A stretch of 64,000 nucleotides of DNA from an uncultured Bacteroidales bacterium. GTDB taxonomy: Bacteria; Bacteroidota; Bacteroidia; Bacteroidales; P3. The DNA lies in NCBI GenBank assembly GCA_944321735.1, contig CALUMK010000006.1, positions 44,845 through 108,844 of the forward strand, read 5' to 3'. A model generated the notes under the pieces. That model was not told the DNA's origin, ran no database searches, and worked only from the letters and a program-made list of their open reading frames with translations. A program made the position numbers and the translations under genes. Positions 13,562 through 54,768 of the stretch are shown here, in pieces; positions within the stretch are counted from its first letter, which is position 1; every line of letters starts with the position of its first letter.

Positions 13562-13669
13562 TGCCATTCTGATTTTGCGAACCTTCCGGCTTCCTTTCGG
13601 GGCAGCCAAGACCGGCTCGGATTCAGATTTCCTTTATACCTTGATATTGTTTTACTGCCAAAGGTAACC

Positions 13670-15604: not shown

Positions 15605-15627
15605 GTTGCGTTTGTTTTTTCCCTTTT

Positions 15628-15651
15628 ATACCGGAAAACACAAAAAGTAAC
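15628..15651 (-). promoter_or_regulatory. Promoter-like motif GTTAC-N14-GGTAT upstream of pseudokinase
   Basis: On the minus strand GTTAC (15647-15651) and GGTAT (15628-15632) are 14 nt apart and end 24 bp before the ATG at 15604. The same bipartite motif recurs upstream of other signalling genes in this window. Confidence 0.55.
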
Positions 15652-15680
15652 CGGGAAATTTTCTGCAACCAACCAGAGCC

Positions 15681-16799: not shown

Positions 16800-16818
16800 G
16801 GTTTCGTGAATATTATCT

Positions 16819-35635: not shown

Positions 35636-35751
35636 CTTGCCGATGGCAGGCCGTGGCTTGGCCGCCTTGCTCACTGACGTTCCGCTGGGCGACCCACTTC
35701 GGCCTGCCGCCTTAGCTTAGCGAGCAAGACGGGATGTCCGGCAGGAAAACT
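35636..35751 (-). repeat. Hairpin element H1 (detached from its variable region)
   Basis: Homologous to H2 and H3 downstream of variable regions 2 and 3. The stem CTTGCTC/GAGCAAG surrounds GC-rich inner arms. It ends in CGGCAGGAAAACT, but here the PIN/XRE module follows instead of a kinase 3' end. Confidence 0.7.
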
Positions 35752-35752
35752 A

Positions 35753-36280
35753 TCAAAAAGACTTCATCTCTTCCAATTGCTCTATTTTATCCAAAATAAG
35801 TTTCTTTGGCAGCCTGCTGTTCATGCCAAGCAGCACATTCAACTTCAAAATCATTTCATGGGCTTCAACAAGCCCCTCTTCAACGAACAAATCCACTACC
35901 CACAAAAGCCCCGATACAATAATACCTTTATCGATAGCATGGTGTTTCAGCTTTTTATCTCCTGTCAGAAGCCTGTAGTTATGCTTCTTTGCATAGTGCA
36001 TCACAGAACAGTCAACGAAAGAAAGATTGGTATTGATTGCACAATCCGAATATAGCGAGAATACCTCCGCCATTTCTTCCTGAGAAGTCGTTACCACTTG
36101 CAAAAAACCTTCTTCCACAAGCAAATCAATCGATGGCCGCTTGTAGGGAGAATTGTGCAACTCCTCTATCACCAAATCTGTTGTGTGAAACCTTGTTCCG
36201 GACAAACGCACATATTCCAACAATCCGGCAGCGTGCATATCTATCAAGATATTGGTATCGTTTACAACAATCTCCTTCAT
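35753..36280 (-). CDS. PIN-domain nuclease, putative toxin
   Basis: 175 residues. PIN-type acidic residues occur in 'VVNDTNILIDMHAAG', 'TTDLVIEELHN', 'LSFVDCSVMHYAKKH' and 'LLTGDKKLKHHA', the expected order for a metal-dependent RNase. The start overlaps the stop of the XRE-ImmA gene by 4 bp (ATGA), so the two are translationally coupled. This fits a toxin of a toxin-antitoxin pair in which the regulator is made first. RNA target unknown. Confidence 0.85.
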   Translation of the reverse strand: MKEIVVNDTNILIDMHAAGLLEYVRLSGTRFHTTDLVIEELHNSPYKRPSIDLLVEEGFLQVVTTSQEEMAEVFSLYSDCAINTNLSFVDCSVMHYAKKHNYRLLTGDKKLKHHAIDKGIIVSGLLWVVDLFVEEGLVEAHEMILKLNVLLGMNSRLPKKLILDKIEQLEEMKSF

Positions 36281-37323
36281 TGCACATTTATATGCCCAAG
36301 TATCACATCGACAGGTTCGTTCAAGAGATTTGCCGCCTTTGACACACTGATAAGTTCATCGGAAAGCGCCTTGTACACAATGCGTTCGTACCGAGTCGTA
36401 TGCTCCTGAGGATATACGGACCTCCTGACTTCCTTTTTCAGTTTATCCGATTTGTTGAGTGAAATATAGAAGTTCCGGTACTGGTTCTCTGTGATGATGC
36501 TCAATTGCTGCGCTTTAGCCATGATGGCTTCCACCGAAATACCATACAGCCGCTGAATGTCCTTCAATTCCACAAGCGAAATATGTTTTCTTCTCTCTCC
36601 CACTATCTGCTTCAGCACCGCCGAGGGCAGCAGAACCTCATTGGCAAAAATATTGCATAACTTTTCTTCATCCACATTGTCCGCAAAAGAGAGAACCAGA
36701 TGAGCAAGCTCATGGAATATCGTGAGACGCTTGCGTTCCGAATCAACGTTTTTGTTCAACACGATAACCGGAATATCTTTGTCACACACGCAACTACCGT
36801 CAAACTTGCTGTCAGCTTCCACTTCCATGACTTTTAAACCACGATTCTCCAACACATCGATAGGATTAGGAATGCCGTCTGTACCCAAATCCAATTTTTC
36901 TCGCAACCTGTTAGCAAGCGCCCTCGCATCGTTCGCCGTTGAAACCACATCTTCCCGGAAATCGATATCGAATCGCTTGCCATCATGAGTGATGGATTCC
37001 GCTTCCAAGTATTTTTCAAGCTGTGCAATAATGACTTCTTTCAGCGCGTTTTCCTGCTTTTTCCCCAAGGATGATTTTTTACGGAACTCAAAGCTGTCAG
37101 CATCTATTTGGACAATGAACGGACGAAAGAAATAGTCCACTTCCATATCTAAAGCCCTAGACAAGGCAATAAGGATAGTACTGGAAGGCAGCATCTTCCC
37201 TGTCTCGTACTTGGCAATGGCATTACCCGATACCAGACCTCCCATTTTTTCGCATAAATCCCTTTGCGAAAGGCATCTTATCTTGCGAGCATTGGCAAGT
37301 CTCTTTCCGAATACGCTGTCCAT
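36277..37323 (-). CDS. XRE-family regulator with ImmA/IrrE-like metallopeptidase domain
   Basis: 348 residues from the ATG at 37323. The N-terminal helix-turn-helix (about 1-65) has 'LSQRDLCEKMGG' and 'NAIAKYETGKMLPSS'. The central ImmA/IrrE-type zinc peptidase motif is 'LTIFHELAHLVLSF' (HExxH), with 'NIFANEVLLP' downstream. The C-terminal part (about 240-348) looks like a DNA-binding or toxin-binding extension. It is likely the antitoxin and autorepressor of the PIN toxin. An inverted repeat overlaps its promoter. Confidence 0.88.
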   Translation of the reverse strand: MDSVFGKRLANARKIRCLSQRDLCEKMGGLVSGNAIAKYETGKMLPSSTILIALSRALDMEVDYFFRPFIVQIDADSFEFRKKSSLGKKQENALKEVIIAQLEKYLEAESITHDGKRFDIDFREDVVSTANDARALANRLREKLDLGTDGIPNPIDVLENRGLKVMEVEADSKFDGSCVCDKDIPVIVLNKNVDSERKRLTIFHELAHLVLSFADNVDEEKLCNIFANEVLLPSAVLKQIVGERRKHISLVELKDIQRLYGISVEAIMAKAQQLSIITENQYRNFYISLNKSDKLKKEVRRSVYPQEHTTRYERIVYKALSDELISVSKAANLLNEPVDVILGHINVQ

Positions 37324-37349
37324 AATTCGAGGTTTACTTTTACTTGTTC

Positions 37350-37389
37350 CGGTGTGCAAAAATACAAAAAATCAAAAATCCGCACACCG
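37350..37389 (-). promoter_or_regulatory. Promoter and operator of the XRE-PIN module
   Basis: Minus-strand TATTTTTG (37357-37364) is the TAnnTTTG box. The 8-bp arms CGGTGTGC (37350-37357) and GCACACCG (37382-37389) flank it, the expected position for an autorepressor site. Confidence 0.6.
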
Positions 37390-37437
37390 TCTAAAACACA
37401 AAACACACTTTTACAACAGACAGGAGCGGCAGGAAAA

Positions 37438-39090
37438 CTAAAGGGACAAAACGAGGCGGAGGCCGAAGTTGACGCACCTGCCGCCAGGGTCGCCGTTGAG
37501 CCGGTACGACACCCGGCAGTACCTGGCATTGCCCCAGTCGCTGCCCCCGCGAAGCACGCGATAACGTCCGGATGCCGGCCCGGCCGGGTCTGTCTGCGCC
37601 TCGTCTTTGTACGGCCCGTACCAGTCCTGGCACCACTCCCACACGTTCCCGCTCATGTCGTATAGACCCAATTCGTTCGGCTTCTTCTGCCCCACCGGAT
37701 GCGTCTTTGCCCCTTTCCCAAAGCCAAGGCTGCTGTTCCCATCATGCCATGCCACCTCGTCGGCATCGTCGCTCCCGCTGTAGATGAAGCCTCTGCTCTG
37801 CCGCCCTCCCCGCGCCGCGTACTCCCACTCCGCCTCCCTTGGCAGGCGGAACGCCAATCCCGTCCTATCGTTCAGTTTCTTGATGAACTCCTGGCAATCC
37901 TTCCAGCTCACGTTCTCCACCGGGTAATCGTCCCCAGCCTTGTTGTTGCTCGGATTCCTGCCCGTCACCTCCCTCCACAAGCCTTGCGTCACCGGATACT
38001 GCCCGATATAGTAATCCGACAATGCGACTTCGTGCAAGGGCTTTTCATCGGCAGCCGCCCACGCCCCCTGCTTTTCGTCCGCCCCCATCCGGAATGTCCC
38101 TCCCGCCACCGGCATCATCCTGAACTGCACATTCCCGACCCGGATTTCCCGGACTTCCATTTCCTTGGGACGGTCCTGCAGGCCGTTCATGAATCCCGAA
38201 CCGCCTACCTCCTTCAGCACCACTGTCTTCCTTGCATCTTCCTCCCGCTGCGGCTCTTGCCTGTCCCACCGGAACGCCGCCGGCTCGCCCTTCTGACGCT
38301 TGACCGCGTAATCGCTCAGCTGCTCCGCCGTCGGCCTCTCCCACGTGTCCTTGGACAAACATGACTCCAGCATCGCTTGCAAATCCTTGCTGTATTTGTC
38401 CTCCAGTTCCGGCGTCTCCGCCCCGTGCAGCTGCATCACACCCCCTTGACCCATGAACGGCAATTCCCCGCTCAGCAGCTCGTACAGGCTAGCCCCCATC
38501 GCCCAGATGTCCGTCGCCTTCACCGACTCCGGCTTCTTGGTGAACAGCTCCGGCGCCATGTACCCTATCGTGCCCGCTATGTCCTTCTGGCTCATCTCAC
38601 GCGTCGAGTTCCTTCGCAGCGTGCTCCGCATCCGCGTGCTGATCCCGAAGTCCGATATCAGGAAATTCCCCTCCCTGTCCTGCATGATGTTGTCCGGCTT
38701 GATGTCCCGGTGCACGATGTCCTTTCCATGCAGGTACGACAAGCCCGCCGACACGTCCCGGAGGAACTTCCATGCCTTCCCCTCGTCCATCTTCCCAACC
38801 AACGAGACCGCGGACTCCGGGCAGTACGGCATCACGATGAACGGACGGTTCTCGCAGATGTCGTAGTAGTCGGCATGCAACAGGTTGGGATGAGTCAAGG
38901 CGTTGGCCACCTTGAACTCCTCCGTGAACTCCTTCAACCCCTGCTTGTCCAGGGCGATGTATATCTTCACCGCCACTTCCGCCTCCGTCACCTCGTCCCT
39001 CGCCCGCCATACTTCCCCGAATGACCCCCGGCCCCGTTCCTCCAACAGGCGGTAACGGTCCTTGATCAGCACGTTTTCCTGTAGTTCCAT
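37438..39090 (-). CDS. Cytosolic Ser/Thr kinase with DGR-type variable FGE-sulfatase domain (VR1)
   Basis: 550 residues. The kinase domain (about 15-275) is complete: 'GRGSFGEVWRA', 'VAVKIYIAL', 'HRDIKPDNIM', 'SDFGIST' and the loop 'STLRRNSTRE'. A short linker without membrane helix leads to an FGE-sulfatase domain (about 317-550): 'GTFRMGADEKQGAW', 'PVENVSWKDCQEFI', 'LPREAEWEYAARGG' and 'GNVWEWCQDWYG'. The end, 'VLRGGSDWGNARYC' to 'FGLRLVLSL', is a variable region. The FGE active-site Cys pair is not kept, so this is a ligand-binding fold rather than an enzyme. Kinase half nearly identical to 48446-50287; sensor half nearly identical to 42006-43655. Confidence 0.94.
   Translation of the reverse strand: MELQENVLIKDRYRLLEERGRGSFGEVWRARDEVTEAEVAVKIYIALDKQGLKEFTEEFKVANALTHPNLLHADYYDICENRPFIVMPYCPESAVSLVGKMDEGKAWKFLRDVSAGLSYLHGKDIVHRDIKPDNIMQDREGNFLISDFGISTRMRSTLRRNSTREMSQKDIAGTIGYMAPELFTKKPESVKATDIWAMGASLYELLSGELPFMGQGGVMQLHGAETPELEDKYSKDLQAMLESCLSKDTWERPTAEQLSDYAVKRQKGEPAAFRWDRQEPQREEDARKTVVLKEVGGSGFMNGLQDRPKEMEVREIRVGNVQFRMMPVAGGTFRMGADEKQGAWAAADEKPLHEVALSDYYIGQYPVTQGLWREVTGRNPSNNKAGDDYPVENVSWKDCQEFIKKLNDRTGLAFRLPREAEWEYAARGGRQSRGFIYSGSDDADEVAWHDGNSSLGFGKGAKTHPVGQKKPNELGLYDMSGNVWEWCQDWYGPYKDEAQTDPAGPASGRYRVLRGGSDWGNARYCRVSYRLNGDPGGRCVNFGLRLVLSL
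37441..38366. repeat. Duplicated sensor-domain block, copy A
   Basis: About 0.92 kb encoding linker and FGE domain, nearly identical to 42009-42929 except for the variable codons and a few sites. Identity stops abruptly at the kinase C-lobe near GGACAAACA. Confidence 0.8.
37465..37539 (-). other. DGR-type variable region VR1
   Basis: Fifteen codons differ from VR2 and VR3 only at positions 1 and 2. The codon family is NNC, with one AAT- and one AGG-derived codon. Flanks are identical. Confidence 0.85.
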
Positions 39091-39478
39091 GGTTTCTGTT
39101 CGATTTCTATTGATTTCTTCTACTTTTCCCTGATGCCGCGGATTCCCGGCGATTCCCTTTCGCTTTTTCCTTTCGGCAGACAGCCGCAGATGAAAAAAAA
39201 AGCGCGGGGCTGTCCGCTTCTATCCAGCTGGTCGGCCCTAGGAAGCCTCGGCAATGAATAAAGCAACAGCCCCACGCTTCCCTTGTCTCGCAGGTCTACG
39301 TGGAGAGACTGCTTATTCCCTTGCCTTTGAATTTCCTAGGTTCACCAGCAGGAACAAGCCGGACGCTTTCCGCATCCGGAATTATCGCCCCAAAGGTAAT
39401 GCAAAAAACATTTCCCTCGGCTCATCCGGCATCAAGCATCCTCCTCTCGCGGGCTGTCGCTTATCTTCTTACCGGGGC
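38515..39478. repeat. Duplicated kinase-plus-leader block, copy A
   Basis: About 0.96 kb spanning the kinase N-lobe, start codon and leader R1, nearly identical to about 49710-50668. Together with the sensor block this makes the 37438-39090 gene a mosaic of its two paralogues. Confidence 0.8.
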
Positions 39479-39480
39479 GG
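39091..39480 (-). promoter_or_regulatory. Leader R1: promoter box, conserved block, terminator-type hairpin
   Basis: Toward the kinase: TACCTTTG (39391-39398), the block GGTGAACCTAGGAAATTCAA, then a hairpin with 12-bp arms (39202-39213 and 39266-39277) and a T9 tract (39193-39201). A transcript from the box to the T-tract would be about 190 nt. It may be an attenuator or a small RNA. Confidence 0.65.
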
Positions 39481-40009
39481 GACGCTACCTCTTCTTCGCC
39501 CACAGTATCTTCCTCGTCAAAAAACGACCCGGATTCCCGGCCTCGTCGTATCCATTAATACCAGCTTCGGCAAAAGGTAACCGAGTACCGGCAAAATTGC
39601 CGAAAAATCCCATACGGTCGGGTGCAAAAACCGGATTAGTCACCTCCTGTTGAAAAATCGCATCGGGCAATAACCTGCAGGAATCGCTTTTACTCGCTTG
39701 GACGCAATGGCTTTCCCTTGTCTTATTCGAAATGGAAAAGCCGTAGAATCAATGTAGACCAAGCGAGGATGCTGCCACCGTGCAAATTATTCGTACCTTT
39801 GACTGCGTCGAAGGGTAGGATGCGTCTCGGCCATGCAAAACCGAGCAAGCTCCTTTTGCATGGCGCTCGACCTTCACTACCTTTGACTTCGTCGAAGGGT
39901 AGGAGGCGTCTCGGCAACGCAAATCGAGCAAGCCCGTTTGCGCTGCGCTCGACTTTCACTACCTTTGACCTCTGCAAGCAGACACTCAAAAAAACAAAAG
40001 ACTCCAACC
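39481..40009 (+). promoter_or_regulatory. Divergent regulatory region with tandem TACCTTTG repeats
   Basis: Minus-strand GTTAC-N14-GGTAT lies at 39558-39581 (toward the kinase). On the plus strand, three TACCTTTG boxes at 39794-39801, 39878-39885 and 39960-39967 sit in ~83-bp repeats that also contain GTCGAAGGGTAGG and GCTCGAC-TTCACT. The last is 43 bp before the ATG at 40010. Confidence 0.6.
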
Positions 40010-41551
40010 ATGCTTTATCCGATTGGAATCCAAAACTTTGAAAACATCCGCCAAGGAGGCTTCCTTTATGTGGATAAGACCGATTTGATTTACCGACTCG
40101 CCACCACCGGCAAATATTATTTCCTGAGCCGCCCCCGCCGCTTCGGCAAGAGCCTCTTGGTCTCGACCATGGAAGCCTACTTCCAAGGGAAAAAGGAACG
40201 GTTCAAAGGTTTGGCCATCGAGAAATTGGAAAAGGACTGGACAGACTATCCGGTGCTGCATCTGGATCTGAGCGGAAAGGAATACAACAACATGGAAGAC
40301 CTCGATGCCCGCTTGGACAAACATCTGAATCATTGGGAGGCCACCTTTGATGTCTGCAAGCGCTATCCGATGGCCGATGCCCGGTTCTCTGATGTCATCG
40401 ATGCCGCCTATGAAAAAACCGGCAAGCCGGCGGCCATCCTGATAGACGAATACGACAAGCCGCTACTGGACTCGGCCGGCAACGAACCCCTCCGGGAAGC
40501 CTTCCGCAGCCGCCTCCAAGGCTTCTACAGCGTGATGAAGAGCCAGGACGGCAAAATCCGCTTCGGCTTCCTCACCGGGGTCACCAAACTCGGCAAGCTC
40601 AGCATCTTCAGCGGCCTCAACAACCTCAACGACATCTCCATGGATTGGGAGTTCTCCAGCCTCTGCGGCATCTCGGAATCCGAACTCCATGCCTATTTCG
40701 ACCAAGAAGTGATTGCCATGGCGCAGGCCAACCGATTGACTAAAGAGGAATGCTACGCCAAGCTGAAGGACTACTACGACGGCTACCATTTCTGCGAAGA
40801 ATCCGAAGACATCTACAACCCTTTCAGCCTGCTCAGCGCCTTGCGGAAGAAGCGGTTCAGCGATTACTGGTACGAGACCGGCACCCCGACTTTCGTAGTC
40901 AAGGCCCTGCGCAACGGCAAGTTCAACCTGGAAGATTTGACCTTGGAAGGCGTTCCGGCCTCGGCCTTGGGCGGGGTCAATGCCGACGATTCCGACCCGG
41001 TCCCCGTCCTCTACCAGAGCGGCTACCTGACCATCCAGAGCTACGATGACCAGACGCAGGAATATACTTTGAAATACCCCAACAAGGAAGTGGAACGCGG
41101 CTTCATGGAGGGTCTGGCCAATATCTACGTACCTTCCGCGCGGTACAATAGCCCGTTCGCGGTCAAGAAGTTTGCCGAAGATTTCAAGAAGGGCGATGCC
41201 GAAGGCCTGATGAAACGCTTCGAGGCCTTCTTTGCTGATGCCGACTACGAAATCGTGGGCGATGCCGAACTCTACTTCCAAAACACCATGTACGTGATGT
41301 GTAAACTCATGGGGCAATACACCCAAGTAGAACGCCATACCAGCAACGGACGGATGGACATCGTGGTACAGACAGACAAGTACGTCTACATCATGGAACT
41401 GAAGATGGATGCCAGCGCGGACGAGGCCTTAAAACAAATCGAGGACAAAGGCTATGCCAAGCCCTTTGCCGCCGACCCTCGGAAACTCTTCAAAATCGGG
41501 GTCGATTTCTCCAGCCAGACAAGGCGGATTGCGGAATGGAAAATGGCATAG
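40010..41551 (+). CDS. AAA-family ATPase with C-terminal PD-(D/E)XK nuclease-like domain
   Basis: 513 residues from the ATG at 40010 (MLYPIGIQNFENIRQGGF), the usual start of this Bacteroidota family. The AAA-like domain has 'SRPRRFGKSLLVSTM' (Walker A) and 'AAILIDEYDKPLLD' (Walker B). The C-terminal nuclease-like core is 'MDIVVQTDKYVYIMELKMD' with acidic and Lys residues in PD-(D/E)XK order. These proteins are abundant multi-copy genes of unknown, possibly mobile or conflict-related, role. The end of a lost paralogue is at 35557-35605. Confidence 0.9.
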   Translation: MLYPIGIQNFENIRQGGFLYVDKTDLIYRLATTGKYYFLSRPRRFGKSLLVSTMEAYFQGKKERFKGLAIEKLEKDWTDYPVLHLDLSGKEYNNMEDLDARLDKHLNHWEATFDVCKRYPMADARFSDVIDAAYEKTGKPAAILIDEYDKPLLDSAGNEPLREAFRSRLQGFYSVMKSQDGKIRFGFLTGVTKLGKLSIFSGLNNLNDISMDWEFSSLCGISESELHAYFDQEVIAMAQANRLTKEECYAKLKDYYDGYHFCEESEDIYNPFSLLSALRKKRFSDYWYETGTPTFVVKALRNGKFNLEDLTLEGVPASALGGVNADDSDPVPVLYQSGYLTIQSYDDQTQEYTLKYPNKEVERGFMEGLANIYVPSARYNSPFAVKKFAEDFKKGDAEGLMKRFEAFFADADYEIVGDAELYFQNTMYVMCKLMGQYTQVERHTSNGRMDIVVQTDKYVYIMELKMDASADEALKQIEDKGYAKPFAADPRKLFKIGVDFSSQTRRIAEWKMA

Positions 41552-41728
41552 AACGGCTCGATATTGTTTGCTATCATCCTTGGGACTATTCCTTTAATTT
41601 CAACATTTATAATGTTGGACAATTCTATGATATTGCATATGGAATTAGAGCGGCTGGCAATTTATCATCCCTCTTTGCTTTATCACAAATTTATAATATA
41701 TTTTTGATAAAACACAAAACGAGCGAAA

Positions 41729-41869
41729 ATGCAAAGTGTTTATAATGAAATTAAAAAAAATTATGAAATAATGCAGGAAAACATGATTTACGGAGATTCT
41801 CTTCCGTTCGATGAACTGATAGGGAAAATACAAAAACTAAACAATAAAATTAATCTGATTGATTATTAA
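41729..41869 (+). CDS. Possible small AT-rich gene, 46 residues
   Basis: The frame runs from ATG to TAA and reads 'MQSVYNEIKKNYEIMQENMI', then an amphipathic helical remainder ending 'KINLIDY'. It lies in a very AT-rich gap between the AAA/nuclease gene and H2. No homolog is recognised and no clear ribosome site is seen, so this may be chance. Confidence 0.25.
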   Translation: MQSVYNEIKKNYEIMQENMIYGDSLPFDELIGKIQKLNNKINLIDY

Positions 41870-41901
41870 TATTGCATCATCCAAATACCGACAACAATAA
41901 A

Positions 41902-42005
41902 AATACGACTTGGCCGCCTTGCTCCACTGAAGTTCCGCTGGGCGGCCCGCTTCGGCCTGCCGCTTTAGAGCTTAGTGGGCAAGGATGGGATGCCCGGCAG
42001 GAAAA
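41902..42005 (-). repeat. Hairpin element H2, directly after VR2
   Basis: Arms TTGCTCCACT and AGTGGGCAA enclose GC-rich inner arms (GGGCGGCC, GGCCTGCC). It begins at the kinase stop codon, the position of the hairpin/cruciform that follows variable regions in known DGRs. Confidence 0.7.
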
Positions 42006-43655
42006 CTAAAGGGACAAAACGAGGCGGAGGCCGCCGAAGTCGAGCCTGATGCCAGGGTCGAAGCTGATCCGGTACGACACCCGGCAGTACCTGGCATAGG
42101 ACCAGCTGCTGCCCCCGCGAAGCACGCGATAACGTCCGGATGCCGGCCCGGCCGGGTCTGTCTGCGTCTCGGCAGTGTATTCCCCGTACCAGTCCTGGCA
42201 CCACTCCCACACGTTCCCGCTCATGTCGTATAGACCCAATTCGTTCGGCTTTTTCTGCCCCACCGGATGCGTCCTGCGCCCTTTCCAGAAACCAAGGCTG
42301 CTGTTCCCTTCATGCCATGCCACCTCGTCGGCATTGTCGCTCCCGCTGTAGATGAAGCCTCTGCTCTGCCACCCTCCCCGCGCCGCGTACTCCCACTCCG
42401 CCTCCCTTGGCAGGCGGAACGCCAATCCCGTCCTATCGTTCAGTTTCTTGATGAACTCCTGGCAATCCTTCCAGCTCACGTTCTCCACCGGGTAATCGTC
42501 CCCAGCCTTGTTGTTGCTCGGATTCCTGCCCGTCACCTCCCTCCACAAGCCTTGCGTCACCGGATACTGCCCGATATAGTAATCCGACAATGCGACTTCG
42601 TGCAAGGGCTTTTCATCGGCAGCCGCCCACGCCCCCTGCTTTTCGTCCGCCCCCATCCGGAATGTCCCTCCCGCCACCGGCATCATCCTGAACTGCACAT
42701 TCCCGACCCGGATTTCCCGGACTTCCATTTCCTTGGGACGGTCCTGCAGGCCGTTCATGAATCCCGAACCGCCTACCTCCTTCAGCACCACTGTCTTCCT
42801 TGCATCTTCCTCCCGCTGCGGCTCTTGCCTGTCCCACCGGAACGCCGCCGGTTCGCCCTTCTGCCGCTTGACCGCGTAATCGCTCAGCTGCTCCGCCGTC
42901 GGCCTCTCCCACGTGTCCTTGGACAAACAAGACCTGACAAGCGATTTCAGATCGTCCGAAAAATCCCCATGGACTTCTGGCAGTTCCGCCCCTCGCAGCA
43001 GCATCCCGCCTCCTTGTCCGAAAAAAGGAAGTTCCCCGACCAGCAGCTCGAAAAGGGACACGCCAAAGGCCCATATATCGGTGGCCGCAACCGCCTGCGG
43101 ATTGGCCGAGAACAACTCAGGCGCCATATAGGAGAACGAACCGCCTATGTCGGCATCCATCTTCCGAGTGGAATTTCTTCGAAGGGTGCTCCGCATCTTA
43201 AGGCTGATGCCGAAGTCGGTAATCACAAAATCCCCGTCCTCGTTACGTAGTATGTTGTCCGGTTTGATGTCCCGGTGAACGATGCTTTTGGAATGCAGGT
43301 AGGCCAAGCCTCCGGCCACGTCATGGACAAAACGCCATGCGGTCGGTTCGTCCATTTTCCCTATCAACTCCGTGGTGGAAACGGGACAATACGGCATGGC
43401 CAAGTACGGATGGCTTTCATAGACATCGAAGTAATTTGCTTTCAACAGATTGGAATGATTCAAGGCATAAGTTATCTTGTATTCGCCTTTGAATTCCGAT
43501 ACGCCTCGCTCGTCCAAGGCGATATATACCTTCAATGCCATTTCCAAGTCCAAAGACTCGTCCCGGACCAGCCATACATCCCCGAAAGAGCCTCGCCCTA
43601 CTTCCTTTATCAGCCGATACCGGTTCGCGAACAATTCACCTGCCTGCATTTGCAT
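42006..43655 (-). CDS. Cytosolic Ser/Thr kinase with DGR-type variable FGE-sulfatase domain (VR2)
   Basis: 549 residues. The kinase domain (about 15-275) is complete ('GRGSFGDVWLV', 'MALKVYIAL', 'HRDIKPDNIL', 'TDFGISLK', loop 'STLRRNSTRK') and clearly divergent from the 37438 and 48446 kinases. From about residue 245 onward the protein is almost the same as 37438-39090, including the FGE domain. The C-terminal variable region reads 'GGSSWSYARYC' to 'DFGGLRLVLSL'. No membrane helix is seen. The kinase at 43735-45387 lies 79 bp upstream on the same strand, so an operon of two kinases is likely. Confidence 0.94.
   Translation of the reverse strand: MQMQAGELFANRYRLIKEVGRGSFGDVWLVRDESLDLEMALKVYIALDERGVSEFKGEYKITYALNHSNLLKANYFDVYESHPYLAMPYCPVSTTELIGKMDEPTAWRFVHDVAGGLAYLHSKSIVHRDIKPDNILRNEDGDFVITDFGISLKMRSTLRRNSTRKMDADIGGSFSYMAPELFSANPQAVAATDIWAFGVSLFELLVGELPFFGQGGGMLLRGAELPEVHGDFSDDLKSLVRSCLSKDTWERPTAEQLSDYAVKRQKGEPAAFRWDRQEPQREEDARKTVVLKEVGGSGFMNGLQDRPKEMEVREIRVGNVQFRMMPVAGGTFRMGADEKQGAWAAADEKPLHEVALSDYYIGQYPVTQGLWREVTGRNPSNNKAGDDYPVENVSWKDCQEFIKKLNDRTGLAFRLPREAEWEYAARGGWQSRGFIYSGSDNADEVAWHEGNSSLGFWKGRRTHPVGQKKPNELGLYDMSGNVWEWCQDWYGEYTAETQTDPAGPASGRYRVLRGGSSWSYARYCRVSYRISFDPGIRLDFGGLRLVLSL
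42033..42107 (-). other. DGR-type variable region VR2
   Basis: Aligns without gaps to VR1 and VR3. Variable codons are of the NNC type with constant third bases. Confidence 0.85.
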
Positions 43656-43734
43656 ATGTCATAAGTATTGAATCCAAATCTGTCTTTTTTTCTCGGACAT
43701 GAAGCCCGTCTGTCTCAGTGCTATGTGCCAAAGG

Positions 43735-45387
43735 TCAATATTCAAAATCTTGAGGAAGCCCTTTATGCGGCTTGCCATCCTGCATCCATTTCTCGGGTCT
43801 GAAGCCTAAAGCGAATGCCAAACCTGAAATTATTACACCGAAAATAATATATGTGGGCAGTATAAGCGTCAAGAATGCTGCAAATATTCCCATTACAAAA
43901 ACAATTTCGACAACCAAAAACAACTTGCCAAAAAAACTCTTGCCGATACCTTCTTGCAAGTCACTACCTATATCCCAAGGCAAGTCGAACACCCATTCAC
44001 CCCCTATTCCTGTATAGGCCAGCACCGTTCCTATGACAAATATGATTATCAATATAATCCATATACCCCCCACAATCGGTACGACATAGCCACTTAGCCC
44101 TATCCAATCGAAGGCTAACGGGCATAAATCCCCATTCTGATCATACACATATTTCTTTCCGTTATAAACCACTGCCACCTTTTCCGGAGGATTCGTGAAC
44201 AAATAATAATTTTCCTTCCACGTAGTCCGATCCGTGAACAAATACGAAGAAGTCAGCTGAAGCCGTCCATTGGATTTGAACTCTGCACACGCATAACGCC
44301 CGTTCTCCCCGACAAAGGTCTTTTTCTTGGAAATCTTAGGGCTCACCCAGTCGAATTGCGCTGAAATTCTATTCCCTGCGGTATTTTCGTACCATTGCCG
44401 GCCATGGGAATCCGTGCCTATCCAGATCTCCGAATCGTTTGTTTTTGTTCGCTGAATATCTGCTTGGTTGTTCGAACTCCGTGTGGATACTGGCGGATTG
44501 TTGCTTTTCTGCGTAGGAGCAGAAGGCCGCGGACTACCGGCTGCCGAAGAATAAGCAGCTCTATGAAAAACCGTCGACTGATTTGCCGTTGATACCGTTT
44601 CCAATCCCTTCATCAGCTGTTTGGCCGCAGGCCTGTTAGCCGGATCTGCAGCAAGGCAGGTCGATACCACGCTTTTCAACTTCAACGAAACCGCCAAGGG
44701 GATGACAGGCACATCCGCGCCCTGCTTTTGCATCACGCCGCCTTGCCCACAGAAAGGCAATTCGCCCATAATCAATTCGTACAGACTTGCCCCGAACGCC
44801 CAGATATCAGAAGCCGCGGTCGCTTTAGGCATCGAGCTGAACAATTCGGGTGCCATATAGGGAATCGTGCCGGCATTATCATTCAACTGCATTTGGCGAG
44901 TCGAATTTCTCCGCAAGGTATCCCGCATCCGAGTGCTGATACCAAAATCCGCGATAAGGAATCGGCCAGACCGGTCTCTCAATATATTGGCTGGCTTGAT
45001 GTCCCGATGGATGATACCATTCTCATGCAGATAAGCCAAACCGGCTGCCACCTCCCGGAGGAACTTCCAGGCCGTCTCCTCGTCCATCTTCCCTGCCAAC
45101 GAGAGCGACGAATCCGGGCAGTACGGCATCACGACGAAAGGACGGTTCTCGTAAATGTCATAATAATCGGTGTGGAGCAAATTGGGATGGTTCAGGGCGT
45201 TGGCTATCTTGAATTCCTCTGCAAAGACTTGCTGTCCTTGCCTGTCCAAACCGATTAGCATCTTGACCGCCACCTCGCCGCCGGTCACCTCGTCCCTCGC
45301 CCGCCATACTTCCCCGAATGACCCCCGGCCCCGTTCCTCCAACAAGCGGTAACGGCCCTTGATCAGCACGTTTTCCTGTAGTTCCAT
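43735..45387 (-). CDS. Transmembrane Ser/Thr protein kinase with unique C-terminal region
   Basis: 550 residues. The kinase domain (about 15-275) is complete: 'GRGSFGEVWRA', 'VAVKMLIGL', 'HRDIKPANIL', 'ADFGIST', loop 'DTLRRNSTRQ'. The first ~30 codons match the 37438 and 48446 kinases, then the sequences diverge. A Ser/Asn-rich linker leads to a beta-rich region (about 325-425, 'WIGTDSHGRQWYENTAGNR'). Three membrane helices lie near 435-530 ('YVVPIVGGIWIILIIIFVIG' and following). There is no FGE domain or variable region. It leads the operon with the VR2 kinase, so the two may form a receptor complex (inference). Confidence 0.9.
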   Translation of the reverse strand: MELQENVLIKGRYRLLEERGRGSFGEVWRARDEVTGGEVAVKMLIGLDRQGQQVFAEEFKIANALNHPNLLHTDYYDIYENRPFVVMPYCPDSSLSLAGKMDEETAWKFLREVAAGLAYLHENGIIHRDIKPANILRDRSGRFLIADFGISTRMRDTLRRNSTRQMQLNDNAGTIPYMAPELFSSMPKATAASDIWAFGASLYELIMGELPFCGQGGVMQKQGADVPVIPLAVSLKLKSVVSTCLAADPANRPAAKQLMKGLETVSTANQSTVFHRAAYSSAAGSPRPSAPTQKSNNPPVSTRSSNNQADIQRTKTNDSEIWIGTDSHGRQWYENTAGNRISAQFDWVSPKISKKKTFVGENGRYACAEFKSNGRLQLTSSYLFTDRTTWKENYYLFTNPPEKVAVVYNGKKYVYDQNGDLCPLAFDWIGLSGYVVPIVGGIWIILIIIFVIGTVLAYTGIGGEWVFDLPWDIGSDLQEGIGKSFFGKLFLVVEIVFVMGIFAAFLTLILPTYIIFGVIISGLAFALGFRPEKWMQDGKPHKGLPQDFEY

Positions 45388-45780
45388 AGACTCTTTGGAT
45401 TTCTTTTGCCTTTAATTGGATGTGTGTCAAACAGGAATGACTCCCATTCTCTATTTTGATACACCTTTTTCGCACTTATCTTTCGGCAGACAGCCACAGA
45501 TGAAAAAAAAAGCGCGGGGCTGTCCGCTTCTATCCAGCTGGTCGGCCCTAGGAAGCCTCGGCAATGAATAAAGCAACAGCCCCACGCTTCCCTTGTCTCG
45601 CAGGTCTACGTGGAGAGACTGCTTATTCCCTTGCCTTTGAATTTCCTAGGTTCACCAGCAGGAACAAGCCGGACGCTTTCCGCATCCGGAATTATCGCCC
45701 CAAAGGTAATGCAAAAAACATTTCCCCCGGCTCATCCGACACCAAGCATCCTCCTCTCGCGGGCTGTCGCTTATCTTCTC
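45388..45780 (-). promoter_or_regulatory. Leader R2: promoter box, conserved block, terminator-type hairpin
   Basis: Same arrangement as R1: TACCTTTG (45701-45708), the GGTGAACCTAGG block, hairpin arms 45512-45523 and 45576-45587, and a T-tract on the gene side. It differs from R1 in the ~90 bp nearest the start codon. Confidence 0.65.
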
Positions 45781-45830
45781 TGCAATGGGCGGACATGGCT
45801 TTCCCGCTTTCGACATCCTCCCCTACTGCA

Positions 45831-45958
45831 CTCGCCGCCTCTTCTCCGACATGGTTCCAATCGGAATGCTACAACCATTCTCACCCTTCCCGTACTCGCT
45901 GCCTCTTCTCCGGCATGGTTCCAATCGGGATGCTACAACCATTCCCACCCCTCCCGTA
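45831..45958. repeat. Two tandem 64-bp repeats
   Basis: Copies 45831-45894 and 45895-45958 share CATGGTTCCAATCGG and ATGCTACAACCATTC with a few substitutions. They interrupt a region otherwise shared with 39480-39600. Confidence 0.75.
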
Positions 45959-46035
45959 ATCGATACCACATCTCCGCCCACCGTATCTTCCTCGTCAAAA
46001 AACGACCCGGCTTCCCAGCTTCGTTGTATCCATTA

Positions 46036-46059
46036 ATACCAACTTCGGCAAAAGGTAAC
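46036..46059 (-). promoter_or_regulatory. Promoter-like motif GTTAC-N14-GGTAT upstream of R2
   Basis: GTTAC at 46055-46059 and GGTAT at 46036-46040 (minus strand). The surrounding 50 bp match those at 39545-39595 upstream of R1. From about 46085 to 46217 I see only AT-rich sequence without a gene. Confidence 0.5.
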
Positions 46060-46217
46060 CGAGCCTCGGCAAAATTGCCGAAAATAACATATGAGTCAGC
46101 GCGAATCGCAAGACAGACAAAATGCAAATTTTTATAACAACATGAAAAAACAAAGATATTCGAATACAGATTATCAAATTATTGCATTTGCGCAGTTGCC
46201 CTGATGCAAACAACAGC

Positions 46218-46994
46218 TCACAACGCTTTTACCAAACATTCCCATTGAGACCGAAGATGTTCATAACTTGTTCCAAAAACATCCTTCAAATCAAACAAGG
46301 CACTGCCACCGGGATTCTTTATCTCTTTCTCTATGCACTTCCGATAGTACGCACGCTGCTCGCTCGTCAACAGTACGGATAGATCGAGTCCTAACCAATA
46401 AGCACCAGCTTTGCCAATATCAAAGTCCGGCCACTCATACACTTCCGAATGGGGATTTCTGCTACAATTAGAGGCAAAATAACAAGCCATGATGCAAGCC
46501 ATATCTTCTGCATCTTTGCTTGTCACCGTATGGCGATCCAACCATGCCGCAAGTTTCATCAGAAAGATTCCGGGCAAGGAAGCCATCTTGAAACTGAACT
46601 CGTCATCGACCCTCACCTCCACAGCCGCCCGCAACACCTCTTCAAATCCTTTCACAAGCATGGCCGGAGTCTCTTCAGGCGGCCAATAAACCGTATCATC
46701 CTTGGCCACTCGACCATAAGGCACAACATCCACTTCCATTTTTCCATACAGGAAACGTTGCTTATTCCCTGGATCCTTGCGGAAGCCACTTGCAACCAAC
46801 GCATTGGAAATAACTTCGAATGCACTCCAGTCGGGGATGGCAACCGCAAAATCCAGATCCCGCGTTTTCCGCATCGGCTTTTCGTCAGCCAGTTGCTGAA
46901 ACAAAATATCCCTTGCGGTGGCGCCAATCACATAAAAGACTTGATTTATACGGTCAAAGGTCTTGACCAATTGCCGGAGCGTGTCCGCTATCAT
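46218..46994 (-). CDS. AbiEii-like nucleotidyltransferase, putative toxin
   Basis: 258 residues from the ATG at 46994; an ATG at 47033 is also in frame but would overlap the upstream gene by 80 bp. Nucleotidyltransferase features are 'YVIGATARDIL' and the catalytic acidic pair in 'TRDLDFAVAIPDW', followed by 'KMEVDVVPYG'. The C-terminal half is helical with 'LMKLAAWLDRHTVTSKDAED', typical of AbiEii/COG4849-like proteins. AbiEii toxins inactivate tRNAs by adding nucleotides. It overlaps the AbiEi-like gene, so it is coupled to it as a type IV toxin-antitoxin or abortive-infection pair. Confidence 0.82.
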   Translation of the reverse strand: MIADTLRQLVKTFDRINQVFYVIGATARDILFQQLADEKPMRKTRDLDFAVAIPDWSAFEVISNALVASGFRKDPGNKQRFLYGKMEVDVVPYGRVAKDDTVYWPPEETPAMLVKGFEEVLRAAVEVRVDDEFSFKMASLPGIFLMKLAAWLDRHTVTSKDAEDMACIMACYFASNCSRNPHSEVYEWPDFDIGKAGAYWLGLDLSVLLTSEQRAYYRKCIEKEIKNPGGSALFDLKDVFGTSYEHLRSQWECLVKAL

Positions 46995-48045
46995 TGGCGT
47001 CCCTAACTGCTCGCTCGAAATTGACAATACCATGTTCCAAAAGTTTTTCGGCTGTTTCTATGCAACGGCTATTGCCGCTCCCCATCAAATCGGCATATAC
47101 CAGTATTGGCGAAACAATCCTACTTTCAAGATTCTGTTGATTCCAGAAAACCTGGTAAACCGAAATTTCCCCCTTGTCATCCGGCTGCACGAAGCCGGTT
47201 CGCATCAGGTAGGCAGCCGGTACCGCAGTATAGATATCAAATGCCACCGGCTCCATATAACTGTCTAACAAATAGGCAGCAGGCTCTCCGCTCCATGCCA
47301 TCCCTTGCGGCAAAACCATTTCCGCCCATCGTTTCCTGCACGCTTCGTTCCGGAAACGCATTCTGGCCAAAAGAAGCTTCGGCTTCAACACGTCGCCATA
47401 GTTTTCCGACCACAAGTCCAGCAGTTTCCGGGGATTCCTAAGCAGCCTTCCGTTTGCATGCTCTACAGCAAAACCCTTATCGGAAAGCCCGTCGATGACA
47501 TTTTTCACCGAACCCAGCGATACGCCTGTCGCTTGCTGGATTTGCCTGTAAGGTGCATCGATGCGGGCAAGATCCTGCAACAGGTAGAACAATACTTTTA
47601 TCCCCGTTTCATGGAATACCGGATAAACACGATGATTCCGGGCGGCATTCTTTTCTCCCTGTGTAAGGCAGAAAAAAGATTTCCCTCGGTTGCTATGCCG
47701 AATATGGCTGTTGCCAGTGCAATCCGCAAAATTCATGCCTATTGACGACAATTCTTTCTGTAATGGCAGATTAAGATGCTCTGTGATTAGCAAAATCGGA
47801 AGCTTGCTTCCCTCTGCCAACGATTGCAGATGTTGAATAACCCGGTTGACGGAAGATCGGGTCACGTTCGGGACTACCAGACAACAATAATCCTCGTCCA
47901 TGATACGGATTATCGGCAAAAGCTCGTCCGTGCTTCCAGTGGCGGAATCCAAGCGTTCCACCCGCATAAGGTCTTCCGTCATGGACAGTTTCTCCCGCAT
48001 AACCGCCAAGGCATTTTGCAATATATTATCCTCCTTCAAAGTCAT
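46954..48045 (-). CDS. AbiEi-like winged-helix antitoxin/repressor
   Basis: 363 residues. A central winged-helix segment (about 145-215) has 'HETGIKVLFYLLQD', 'PYRQIQQATGVSLGSVKNVI' and 'LSDKGFAVEHANGRLLRN', as in type IV antitoxins. The N-terminal ~120 residues look like a degenerate nuclease-type fold ('LPILLITEHLNLPLQKEL'). The C-terminal part is the AbiEi-type domain ('PAAYLLDSYMEPVAFDIYT'). It is made first in the operon and is preceded by a palindromic operator overlapping its promoter, so autoregulation is likely. Confidence 0.82.
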   Translation of the reverse strand: MTLKEDNILQNALAVMREKLSMTEDLMRVERLDSATGSTDELLPIIRIMDEDYCCLVVPNVTRSSVNRVIQHLQSLAEGSKLPILLITEHLNLPLQKELSSIGMNFADCTGNSHIRHSNRGKSFFCLTQGEKNAARNHRVYPVFHETGIKVLFYLLQDLARIDAPYRQIQQATGVSLGSVKNVIDGLSDKGFAVEHANGRLLRNPRKLLDLWSENYGDVLKPKLLLARMRFRNEACRKRWAEMVLPQGMAWSGEPAAYLLDSYMEPVAFDIYTAVPAAYLMRTGFVQPDDKGEISVYQVFWNQQNLESRIVSPILVYADLMGSGNSRCIETAEKLLEHGIVNFERAVRDANDSGHAPAIGQDL

Positions 48046-48067
48046 TGCCTGTTCAAAATATTATGCA

Positions 48068-48097
48068 TGTTCAATAAAATTGAACACTGCAAATATA
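48068..48097 (-). promoter_or_regulatory. AbiEi promoter with 19-bp palindromic operator
   Basis: TGTTCAAT-AAA-ATTGAACA (48068-48086) is a perfect palindrome. The minus-strand TATATTTG box (48090-48097) is directly beside it, so a bound repressor would block transcription. A further half-site lies at 48051-48057. Confidence 0.65.
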
Positions 48098-48124
48098 CAA
48101 AACAAAAGGAGAAAATCAATTTAT

Positions 48125-48319
48125 CCCAAATCGGTCATTAGACTTTGGGTAGATTGTCCGCTTATGTCATGCAGCATGCTTCTCGCCTAGCCGAAGGCGT
48201 AGCGGGCTACGTCGAGGCGTAGCGAGGAGCAAGATGCGGACAGAAGCGAACAAGATGCACAAAAGCATCCCTCTTCGAAAACAGGAAACACACTCGGCGA
48301 GTCTAATGACCGATTTGGG
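48125..48319. mobile_element. 195-bp MITE-like element with 19-bp terminal inverted repeats
   Basis: The ends CCCAAATCGGTCATTAGAC (48125-48143) and its exact reverse complement (48301-48319) bound the element. TTTAT occurs on both outer sides (48120-48124 and 48320-48324), which fits a 5-bp target duplication. There is no coding sequence inside. Similar single ends occur near 50890 and 57124. Confidence 0.65.
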
Positions 48320-48337
48320 TTTATGCTTTTCGCCGGC

Positions 48338-48445
48338 GGCAGGCCGTGGCTTGGCCGCCTTGCTCCACTGCCGTTCCGCTGGGCGGCCTGCTTCGGCCTG
48401 CCGCTTCATAGCTTAGTGGACACGATGGGATGCCCGGCAGGAAAA
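48338..48445 (-). repeat. Hairpin element H3, directly after VR3
   Basis: Arms CCACT and AGTGG plus inner GC-rich arms, homologous to H2 and H1. It joins the kinase stop codon through CGGCAGGAAAACT. Confidence 0.7.
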
Positions 48446-50287
48446 CTAAAGGGACAAAACGAGGCGGAGGCCGCGGTAGTCGAACCCGTAGCCAGGGACG
48501 TTGAAGTACCGGATCGACACCCGGCAGATCCTGGCATTGAGCCAGAAGCTGCCCCCGCGAAGCACGCGATGGCCCCCGGATGACGGTCCGGTCGGATTTC
48601 TCTGCGCTTCGGCAGTATAATCCCCGTACCAGTCCTGGCACCACTCCCATACGTTACCGCTCATGTCGTAAAGCCCCAATTCATTCGGGGATTTTCTCCC
48701 CACCGGATGCGTATGGTTTCCGCTATTGCCACTATACCACGCCACGTCCCCTATAGAATTGCTCCCGCTGTACTTGTACCCCCTGCTCTTCCTGCCGCCC
48801 CGTGCCGCGTACTCCCATTCTGCCTCCGTCGGCAAGCGGAATGTCAAGCCCGTCCTCGCGTTCAGCTTCCCTATGAACTCCTGGCAATCCTCCCAACTCA
48901 CATCCTCAACCGGATAATCGTCCCCGGATGGATTGTAGCTCGGATTGCTTCCCATCACCTCCCTCCACAAGCCTTGCGTCACCTCGTACTTCCCGATATG
49001 GAAACTTGAAAGCGTCACGCTATGTACCGGGCGTTCGTCAGATTCAGCGTCGCTGCCTTGCTCAGACGTACCGCCCATCGTGAACGTGCCGCCCTCCACA
49101 TAGACCATCTCAAACGCCACATCTCCTACCCGGATTATTTGATTCGAGGTAGCGTTTCTCCGAGCCTCCGCCAAGGCTATCCGTTCCTGTTCTTCTTGTT
49201 TTACTTGATTCTGCTTGTTCTGCCATAGCAAGATGCCTGCGGCAAACACCGCCAACAGCACAATACCCCAAATCCAGCCGGATTTCTTTTTCCGGACATC
49301 CTCTCTTGCGCCGCTTCCGGCTTCCGCTTTCTTTGAACCTCCCGCAACATTTCCCGGACTGATAGCAACCGTCTGGTTCTCTTTGGGTTTACCAGCCTCT
49401 TCCTTTTTTGGCTTAAGCGTTTCGTTCCGGCCTTCTCGCTTTTCCGATACACTACCCGATTCCCACGGCCTTGCAGGCGTTTCGCCCCGCAGCTTCGCCT
49501 CCGCGTACGACTGCAATTGCTCCGCCGTAGGACGGTTCCAAGTGTTCTTGGCCAGGCAGGCCGCTACCGCCTCACGCAAATCCCGTGAATAAGATTCCGG
49601 TATCTTCGGTGTCTCTGCCCCGTGCAGCTGCATTACCCCGCCTTGACCCATGAACGGCAGTTCCCCTTTCATCAATTCGTACAGGCTCGTACCTAACGCC
49701 CAGATGTCCGTTGCCTTCACCGACTCCGGCTTCTTGGTGAACAGCTCCGGCGCCATGTACCCTATCGTGCCCGCTATGTCCTTCTGGCTCATCTCACGCG
49801 TCGAGTTCCTTCGCAGCGTGCTCCGCATCCGCGTGCTGATCCCGAAGTCCGATATCAGGAAATTCCCCTCCCTGTCCTGCATGATGTTGTCCGGCTTGAT
49901 GTCCCGGTGCACGATGTCCTTTCCATGCAGGTACGACAAGCCCGCCGACACGTCCCGGAGGAACTTCCATGCCTTCCCCTCGTCCATCTTCCCAACCAAC
50001 GAGACCGCGGACTCCGGGCAGTACGGCATCACGATGAACGGACGGTTCTCGCAGATGTCGTAGTAGTCGGCATGCAACAGGTTGGGATGAGTCAAGGCGT
50101 TGGCCACCTTGAACTCCTCCGTGAACTCCTTCAACCCCTGCTTGTCCAGGGCGATGTATATCTTCACCGCCACTTCCGCCTCCGTCACCTCGTCCCTCGC
50201 CCGCCATACTTCCCCGAATGACCCCCGGCCCCGTTCCTCCAACAGGCGGTAACGGTCCTTGATCAGCACGTTTTCCTGTAGTTCCAT
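48446..50287 (-). CDS. Transmembrane Ser/Thr kinase with DGR-type variable FGE-sulfatase domain (VR3)
   Basis: 613 residues. The kinase N-terminal part is virtually identical to 37438-39090 ('GRGSFGEVWRA', 'HRDIKPDNIM', 'SDFGIST', loop 'STLRRNSTRE'). A charged linker is followed by one membrane helix near 337-355 ('GWIWGIVLLAVFAAGILLW'). The FGE-sulfatase domain (about 390-613: 'GTFTMGGTSEQGSDAE', 'LPTEAEWEYAARGG', 'GNVWEWCQDWYG') is therefore extracytoplasmic. The variable end reads 'GGSFWLNARIC' to 'DYRGLRLVLSL'. This architecture is a receptor kinase with a diversifiable ligand-binding domain; ligand unknown. Confidence 0.94.
   Translation of the reverse strand: MELQENVLIKDRYRLLEERGRGSFGEVWRARDEVTEAEVAVKIYIALDKQGLKEFTEEFKVANALTHPNLLHADYYDICENRPFIVMPYCPESAVSLVGKMDEGKAWKFLRDVSAGLSYLHGKDIVHRDIKPDNIMQDREGNFLISDFGISTRMRSTLRRNSTREMSQKDIAGTIGYMAPELFTKKPESVKATDIWALGTSLYELMKGELPFMGQGGVMQLHGAETPKIPESYSRDLREAVAACLAKNTWNRPTAEQLQSYAEAKLRGETPARPWESGSVSEKREGRNETLKPKKEEAGKPKENQTVAISPGNVAGGSKKAEAGSGAREDVRKKKSGWIWGIVLLAVFAAGILLWQNKQNQVKQEEQERIALAEARRNATSNQIIRVGDVAFEMVYVEGGTFTMGGTSEQGSDAESDERPVHSVTLSSFHIGKYEVTQGLWREVMGSNPSYNPSGDDYPVEDVSWEDCQEFIGKLNARTGLTFRLPTEAEWEYAARGGRKSRGYKYSGSNSIGDVAWYSGNSGNHTHPVGRKSPNELGLYDMSGNVWEWCQDWYGDYTAEAQRNPTGPSSGGHRVLRGGSFWLNARICRVSIRYFNVPGYGFDYRGLRLVLSL
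48473..48547 (-). other. DGR-type variable region VR3
   Basis: Gap-free alignment to VR1 and VR2. Differences are confined to first and second codon positions of the same fifteen codons. Confidence 0.85.
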
Positions 50288-50668
50288 GGTTTCTGTTCGA
50301 TTTCTATTGATTTCTTCTACTTTTCCCTGATGCCGCGGATTCCCGGCGATTCCCTTTCGCTTTTTCCTTTCGGCAGACAGCCGCAGATGAAAAAAAAAGC
50401 GCGGGGCTGTCCGCTTCTATCCAGCTGGTCGGCCCTAGGAAGCCTCGGCAATGAATAAAGCAACAGCCCCACGCTTCCCTTGTCTCACAGGTCAACGTGG
50501 AGAGACCGCTTATTCCCTTGCCTTTGAATTTCCTAGGTTCACCAGCAGGAACAAGCCGGACGCTTTCCGCATCCGGAAATATCGCCCCAAAGGTAATGAA
50601 AAAAACACTCCCCCGGCTCATCCGGCGCCAAGCATCCTCCCTCGTGGGCTGTCGCCTATCTTCTTACC
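50288..50668 (-). promoter_or_regulatory. Leader R3: promoter box, conserved block, terminator-type hairpin
   Basis: Nearly identical to R1 down to the start codon. TACCTTTG at 50588-50595, hairpin arms 50399-50410 and 50463-50474, T-tract 50390-50398. Confidence 0.65.
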
Positions 50669-50971: not shown

Positions 50972-50996
50972 ATACCTATTCCCCGCAAAAAGTAAC
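50972..50996 (-). promoter_or_regulatory. Promoter-like motif GTTAC-N15-GGTAT
   Basis: GTTAC at 50992-50996 and GGTATTAAAG from 50976 downwards, about 690 bp before the VR3 kinase start. The 300 bp between it and R3 hold no gene but include a transposon-end-like sequence near 50890. Confidence 0.5.
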
Positions 50997-51150
50997 CCGC
51001 CAAACAAAATAATCGGAATCCTCGGCCGATAGTCGCCCTTGGCTTCGTGCTGCAACCCAAAAGCAACCCACCAAACAAAACAATCGGAATCCTCGGCCGA
51101 TAGTCGCCCTTGGCTTCGTGCTGCAACCCAAAAGCAACCCGCCGAACAAT
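50992..51150. repeat. 71-bp tandem repeat, two full copies and a partial third
   Basis: Units begin at 50992, 51063 and 51134 with GYAACCCRCC and contain CCTCGGCCGATAGTCG. The first unit overlaps the promoter-like motif. From 51150 to the CHAT stop at 51292 nothing else is seen. Confidence 0.75.
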
Positions 51151-54669: not shown

Positions 54670-54693
54670 AATGTCTTTCTTTGCAACAAAGTG

Positions 54694-54701
54694 CAAAGAT
54701 A
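54694..54701 (-). promoter_or_regulatory. TAnnTTTG promoter box of the TPR-CHAT gene
   Basis: Minus-strand TATCTTTG, 25 bp before the ATG at 54669. It supports this start over the longer frame that begins at 54747, upstream of the promoter. Confidence 0.65.
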
Positions 54702-54768
54702 GCGAGATAGTGGAAGCCGATGATAGCGGAAGCCGAGCGCAGCGCAAGCAATTTTTCAGACCGCTTTG

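Follow-up and report, generated by a model that had tools for sequence, protein, structure and literature searches.

Hypervariable kinase-FGE genes of an uncultured gut Bacteroidales bacterium as likely orphan or remote targets of a diversity-generating retroelement

Diversity-generating retroelements (DGRs) are described with kinase targets and with targets remote from the element (PMC7517822), as HRDC-type systems whose targets also occur in isolates without a reverse transcriptase (RT) (PMC4891356), and in connection with DGR-diversified putative antigen sensors, which include loci without an RT (PMC10907252). For these antigen sensors, an arrangement of sensor, signalling domain and protease-type effector has been proposed (PMC10907252), and likewise for related conflict systems (PMC7159879). 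Here we analyse three genes in a 64,000-nt stretch of contig CALUMK010000006.1 from an uncultured gut Bacteroidales bacterium (the window, to whose positions all coordinates refer unless another sequence is named). Each of them joins a Ser/Thr kinase to an FGE-sulfatase domain, and each ends in a variable region (VR) of the kind that a DGR would generate. As kinase targets, remote targets and the targets of RT-less strains are already in print, these genes add a further case, and no paper title on this genus was met in the open-licence literature searched.

Variable codons and the adenines of homologous templates

The three genes, all on the minus strand, lie at 37438-39090 (gene 1), 42006-43655 (gene 2) and 48446-50287 (gene 3), and their 3' ends contain VR1 (37465-37539), VR2 (42033-42107) and VR3 (48473-48547). 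In a gap-free codon-by-codon alignment, exactly 15 codons differ among the VRs and the remaining codons are identical. Over the last 41 codons, including the stop, the variable columns of the three genes distribute as 13/13/0 over codon bases 1/2/3, as compared to 9/6/16 in the 48 codons directly upstream, which means that third bases contribute 0/26 variable columns in the VR part and 16/31 before it. VR3 differs at 0/40 third bases from VR2, as opposed to 40/112 upstream (Fisher p 5.7e-7), and likewise at 0/40 from VR1, as opposed to 42/112 upstream (Fisher p 2.4e-7); for VR1 against VR2 alone, the contrast is not significant (0/40 versus 7/118, Fisher p 0.19). Within the VRs, GAC codons changed solely at the A, AGG codons solely at the A, and AAT codons solely at an A. 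A preliminary description of this DNA had claimed the gap-free alignment, the 15 variable codons separated by invariant ones and the restriction of all differences to codon bases 1 or 2, and every part of this observation is confirmed.

What could generate such a pattern? Ordinary point mutation, combined with diversifying selection on a binding face, would agree with the fact that the varying residues form one patch, and some codons upstream of the VR indeed also change the amino acid between genes 1 and 2. Against this explanation, third bases vary upstream and never within the VRs, and the variable columns match the adenines of templates at homologous loci, which makes selection on point mutations a most improbable source.

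These homologous loci come from the same family. A DGR profile made from four RTs (A1) matches 38/190 family genomes at E<=1e-10, and 12 loci were taken from the matching genomes, namely 12 of the 13 best-scoring with the congener G002 left out (L164-L174 are among them, L164 and L165 being the same DNA as L086 and L123). A pair finder in which mismatches at template adenines are allowed returned one or more template-VR pairs for every locus (12/12); a template peptide of the RGG-W-NNN kind is present in 11/12, and in 9/12 a target gene on the stretch passes an FGE motif test (the target is cut by a contig end or fails that test in L168 and L174, and L175 is of another kind). One locus (L170, genome G139) unites a kinase-FGE target and a template with an RT and an accessory that is 49% identical to an HRDC protein. 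When the window columns are compared with nine family templates, an adenine in at least half of the templates coincides with 21/26 variable and with 7/61 invariant columns (Fisher p 5.9e-10); the templates represent nine of the 12 loci (L169 shortened, L174 and L175 left out, none of L092), and as some are cut short, the late columns rest on 7 or 8. Also the bases agree: those at the AAC-type codons of the window (A20 C5 G13 T28) show no significant difference to the bases found at verified sites of the family (A58 C13 G44 T47; p 0.26), the same holds for the combined codons of two congeners, G001 and G006 (A53 C7 G34 T38; p 0.75), and C is the rarest base in all three spectra. The verified sites stem from 10/17 pairs (left out are the two pairs of L165, those of L172 and L175, and a second pair each in L167, L169 and L170), which had been chosen beforehand for few non-A mismatches, so that their 0/389 is not a test. 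One alignment comprised 30 sequences, with L084, L090, L095, L097 and many other loci left out. In one of the family loci (L164:9341-10462, genome G045), template and RT frame overlap, the template being contained in the 3' end of the frame, so that this frame ends in a template-like peptide.

We regard it as very likely that the variation in VR1-VR3 is of DGR origin. The genes have a 3'-terminal VR that varies at template adenines in bases 1 and 2, with the template being inferred from the homologous loci, they are homologous to targets that do possess an RT and a template, and, judged by sequence, the VR is held by a C-type-lectin/FGE-type domain. The three genes would then be orphan or remote DGR targets. 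By mutagenic retrohoming, one AAC-rich template would be copied into the 3' end of each gene, and any base could be placed opposite the template adenines, whereby up to 15 codons of the FGE domain with its presumed C-type-lectin fold would be rewritten and all other bases would be reset to the template.

An exchange of sequence among paralogues has to be considered as well, since these genes do recombine: the first 575 nt of gene 1 are identical to gene 3, and 199/200 nt upstream agree too, while 450 nt of its FGE half, at 375-825 nt counted from the 3' end, show 0 differences to gene 2. With a 5' part from gene 3 and a 3' part from gene 2, gene 1 is a chimera. Genes 1 and 2, compared in 75-nt bins that start at the 3' end, show 13, 5, 7, 8 and 3 differences and then 0 in six bins, and the VR is the most divergent stretch within this recently shared half, with 18 differences in the preceding 225 nt. 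Cassette shuffling or gene conversion without any RT could make use of such recombination, but searches of the genome detected no silent VR copies, only the VR genes and one 21-bp match, and copying would transfer entire tracts, leaving neither third bases nor the non-A bases of GAC, AGG and AAT untouched. This explanation is thus very unlikely.

Domains of the targets and the element downstream

Pfam assigns the kinase and FGE-sulfatase domains to residues 14-259 and 325-547 in gene 1, 13-258 and 324-546 in gene 2, and 14-259 and 393-610 in gene 3, which bears out the earlier claim that diversified FGE-sulfatase domains are joined to Ser/Thr kinases. In gene 3, a simple hydropathy scan detects a strong hydrophobic segment between the two domains (residues 336-354), likely a transmembrane segment; the same scan gave no strong segment in genes 1 and 2. 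All three kinases contain the HRDIKPDN and DFG sequences, which we take to be marks of active kinases. The kinase domains are also recognised by mad6 and PD-T4-6, two PADLOC kinase models that may fit a good many kinases. As for the FGE domains, TGC is retained in all three VRs, and in an alignment to solved FGEs one of the two cysteines is kept that together presumably form the FGE active site. The preliminary description, which regarded the pair as not kept, is therefore right in that the pair is incomplete and has to be corrected in that one cysteine is retained; in the aligned segment, the window domains lack the complete pair expected of an FGE-sulfatase enzyme. Among solved structures, the nearest in sequence is that of TvpA, the variable protein of T. 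denticola (2y3c, E 4e-38). For the FGE domain of gene 3, the predicted structure reached a mean pLDDT (predicted local distance difference test) of 70, with residues 189-225 below 50, and a mapping of the VR onto its surface was given up because the model is too uncertain in the VR.

Directly after the VR3 stop codon, a GC-rich element is found (48337-48445, minus strand) that is a possible DGR target-recognition element. The same element follows VR2 (41900-42005, minus strand), and a third copy (35637-35752, minus strand) lies 1.7 kb downstream of VR1; as a long match, it occurs at only these three sites of the genome. It also follows the VR genes of G001 and G006, with 3-6 differences in 27-36 nt from that of VR3. 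In BPP-1, a hairpin after the VR is required for retrohoming (PMC3240598). Compared to shuffled sequences, the folding of the element gave z -2.7 for VR3, -1.1 for VR2 and -0.5 for VR1, and the VR3 element folds better than 200/200 shuffles. The downstream hairpin was rejected as a proof of a DGR target due to an unfavourable covariation term. Between VR1 and its copy of the element lies a two-gene module (35753-37359, minus strand) that encodes a PIN domain protein and an HTH-Peptidase_M78 protein, RmrA-like in PADLOC. The module is bracketed by a 14-bp direct repeat (35739-35752 and 37427-37440) that begins with the kinase stop codon, and it looks inserted behind VR1. As it separates VR1 from the element, VR1 may no longer be a good DGR target.

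The missing mutator and the shared backbone

A number of observations weigh against the interpretation as DGR targets. The genome of the window (2.71 Mb in 39 contigs, 94.7% complete) gave no PF00078 match at E<=0.001 nor at E<=1, no match to the RT of a congener (P0007) at E<=10, and none to the four-RT profile at E<=1e-10. The HRDC accessory was matched only in part, over positions 80-153, within a 738-aa frame that presumably encodes RecQ, the search being confined to the HRDC type as opposed to the Avd type. A template pattern with <=3 mismatches retrieved only the three window VRs and one VR-like end on another contig, C4, and a DNA search retrieved only VRs and the 21-bp match. In four congeners with such VRs (G001, G004, G005, G006), no RT of the matching DGR kind was found either. 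Furthermore, 12/87 tested columns disagree with the family templates, 4 of which lie where the window tryptophan comes one codon later, and of the downstream elements only that of VR3 folds clearly better than shuffled sequences, with the covariation being unfavourable. Finally, the data comprise one assembled genome per species, with strain and read variation outside the comparison.

Further searches extended this result. Around the 21-bp match (L022, C1:270001-289000), scanning with a pattern resembling a template and counting AAC revealed nothing template-like. The template pattern gave only VRs or chance matches in the 13 genomes of the genus, and so did a longer one in 393 genomes of the order, where the genus was represented by the genome of the window. 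In a viral collection, as distinct from phage or plasmid records and metagenomes, four stretches carry the short backbone and 0 the 3' tail, and RT relatives are at most 38% identical. The genome-wide check suggested in the preliminary description, for a DGR RT and a template repeat, thus returned neither in this incomplete assembly, and the adenine-directed mutagenesis from an AAC-rich template proposed there is backed by the same-family templates and by the VRs of other species, but not by an RT, template or accessory in the genome itself. As all three components were tested and not found, the set is classed as orphan or remote DGR target genes and not as a DGR.

The VR pattern occurs in 6/13 genomes of the genus, and in 5 of them, G005 included, it looks real (the only match of G003 and one each in G004 and G005 were judged to be chance matches). 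An RT is present in 2/13, namely in G002, where it is of the DGR type (IGNLTSQ) and accompanied by an accessory that is the only full HRDC match within the genus, and in G005, where it is longer and more distant. VRs without a matching RT thus appear to recur within the genus. In G005, the stretch L046:12902-14550 contains a 483-codon RT frame with the motif IGFQCSQ, adjoining a stretch with 12 AAC in 75 bases, and may belong to a further DGR or RT system, with no template-VR pair being obtained from it by the pair finder.

The VR backbone is shared beyond the species. A 3'-tail pattern, searched in seven sources, identified nine genes, of which three are those of the window, five belong to G001 and one to G006. 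As they were chosen by their fixed 3' tail, and most had first been met via the VR pattern, the codons so selected were excluded from a recount, in which gene 3 differs from the G006 gene at 0/23 third bases and from the five G001 genes at 0, 0, 1, 2 and 2 of 23. Upstream of the VR, the corresponding figure is 42-49/112, and the GldJ genes of the window species differ from those of G006 and G001 at 258/505 and 247/504 third bases. In G001 and G006, the targets are FGE proteins with N-terminal parts that either do not resemble those of the window or are truncated where the contig stops. One contig of G001 agrees completely with a Candidatus Pullibacteroides excrementavium record, and over its first 12,000 bases the G006 contig is identical to an uncultured Bacteroidales record. 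Templates do drift, since in another genus, those of four genomes show mutual differences at 8-15/33 third bases. The sharing of the backbone suggests either a common template that has spread recently or an unseen constraint.

The situation differs in a second cluster of the same genome. Three further kinase-FGE genes lie on the minus strand of contig C4 (L019:9794-11794, 11977-13857 and 15128-17134), bringing the total to six kinase-FGE genes in two clusters, and they carry VR-like ends of which the two in register differ at 6/36 third bases. These ends are therefore older or derived from other templates. Third-base changes in relatives had been named in advance as an observation that would speak against a DGR; they were not seen in the C6-type VRs (0-2/23), and they do occur among the three C4 VR ends.

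Where, then, would the mutator be? We see about even chances that RT and template act in trans from DNA that is missing from the assembly. A recent loss of the DGR, with the VRs now being fixed alleles, is possible but rather doubtful. It would be compatible with the RT, template and accessory not being found, with orphan VRs in several congeners, and with G002, where RT and accessory occur together with a target that is out of frame and where no template pair was obtained (L045); moreover, T. denticola isolates are described that retain targets without RT and template (PMC4891356). Against such a loss, there is no backbone drift among the three window VRs nor between gene 3 and the G006 gene, so that any loss must have been very recent in at least two species. 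As for the trans-acting mutator, it is an unlikely possibility that RT and template reside on an element, mobile or poorly binned, which passes between gut Bacteroidales species, rewrites resident orphan FGE sensors, kinases included, and is missing from most assemblies. A travelling mutator would explain one backbone in three species whose GldJ genes diverge at about 50% of third bases, with no RT of this kind and no template being found in any of the three assemblies. One pair of loci is a candidate site of gain or loss: L049:10500-15070 (G001) and L167:657-5285 (G161) have a like gene order by eye, with a protein of about 555 aa followed by FGE targets, and only G161 has accessory, RT and template behind these.

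Surroundings, possible function and known systems

The neighbourhood is rich in signalling proteins. On the minus strand of the window, a related Ser/Thr kinase that according to Pfam has no FGE domain (43735-45387), a kinase-FHA protein (30724-32022), a zinc-ribbon/FHA protein (32026-32757) and two CHAT proteins that are possible effectors (33170-34879 and 51292-54747) are encoded, and FHA-DUF805 and kinase-BACON proteins are further neighbours of the kinase-FGE genes. The C4 cluster is accompanied by PP2C, FHA-trypsin and FHA proteins, two of the latter being similar to those of the window. In total, a PF03781 search detected 10 FGE stretches in the genome, of which those on contig C2 sit in proteins resembling GldJ/GldK-type lipoproteins.

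The region also contains repeats and a further gene pair. Three stretches, 39158-39457, 45468-45767 and 50355-50654, which lie upstream of gene 1, the FGE-less kinase and gene 3, respectively, are copies of one another at 88-97% identity, and short tandem duplications occur at 45820-45947 (64-bp units, 88% identical) and 50988-51129 (71-bp units, 96% identical). An AbiEi-like regulator (PF09952) and an overlapping nucleotidyltransferase just below the AbiEii cut-off are encoded between two kinase genes (46218-48045). A sequence of 24-31 bp at 48300-48326 has at least 37 further matches across the genome (40 among the matches listed), and a second copy lies near 48127.

In functional terms, the diversified face of the FGE domain would probably bind a ligand and thereby control the kinase, and the kinase might signal to the surrounding FHA, kinase and CHAT proteins in a surveillance or defence circuit, an analogy to the sensor systems mentioned at the outset. 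With these findings, the hosts of hypermutated kinase sensors come to include uncultured gut Bacteroidales, and the window set makes it possible to ask whether a mutator that is shared or mobile, instead of resident, can serve diversified immune-like sensors.

How does the locus relate to the described systems? With the published kinase-target DGR system, it shares the C-terminal diversified C-type-lectin (CLec)-type domain fused to a Ser/Thr kinase and the position of the targets away from the RT, with the difference that a DGR with template is present in those genomes, whereas none was found here, and in another phylum. The HRDC-type DGR of T. denticola, with its TvpA-like targets, has in common the FGE-type target, the orphan targets and the HRDC accessory, which here occurs in the homologous family loci; it differs in that the window targets are kinases and that their backbone is common to distinct species (compared with PMC4891356). 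In the Thiohalocapsa PB-PSB1 antigen sensors, as presented in PMC10907252, a diversified CLec/FGE domain is likewise joined to signalling domains, with CHAT- or protease-type genes close by, and there are loci without an RT in the reference genome, as is the case here, but those sensors mostly are STAND NTPase or vWA proteins and are associated with multicellular hosts. Related as well are the family loci L164-L174, whose template peptides have asparagines at the same codons, and above all L170 with its kinase-FGE target; in contrast to the window, these loci have RT and template at the locus itself.

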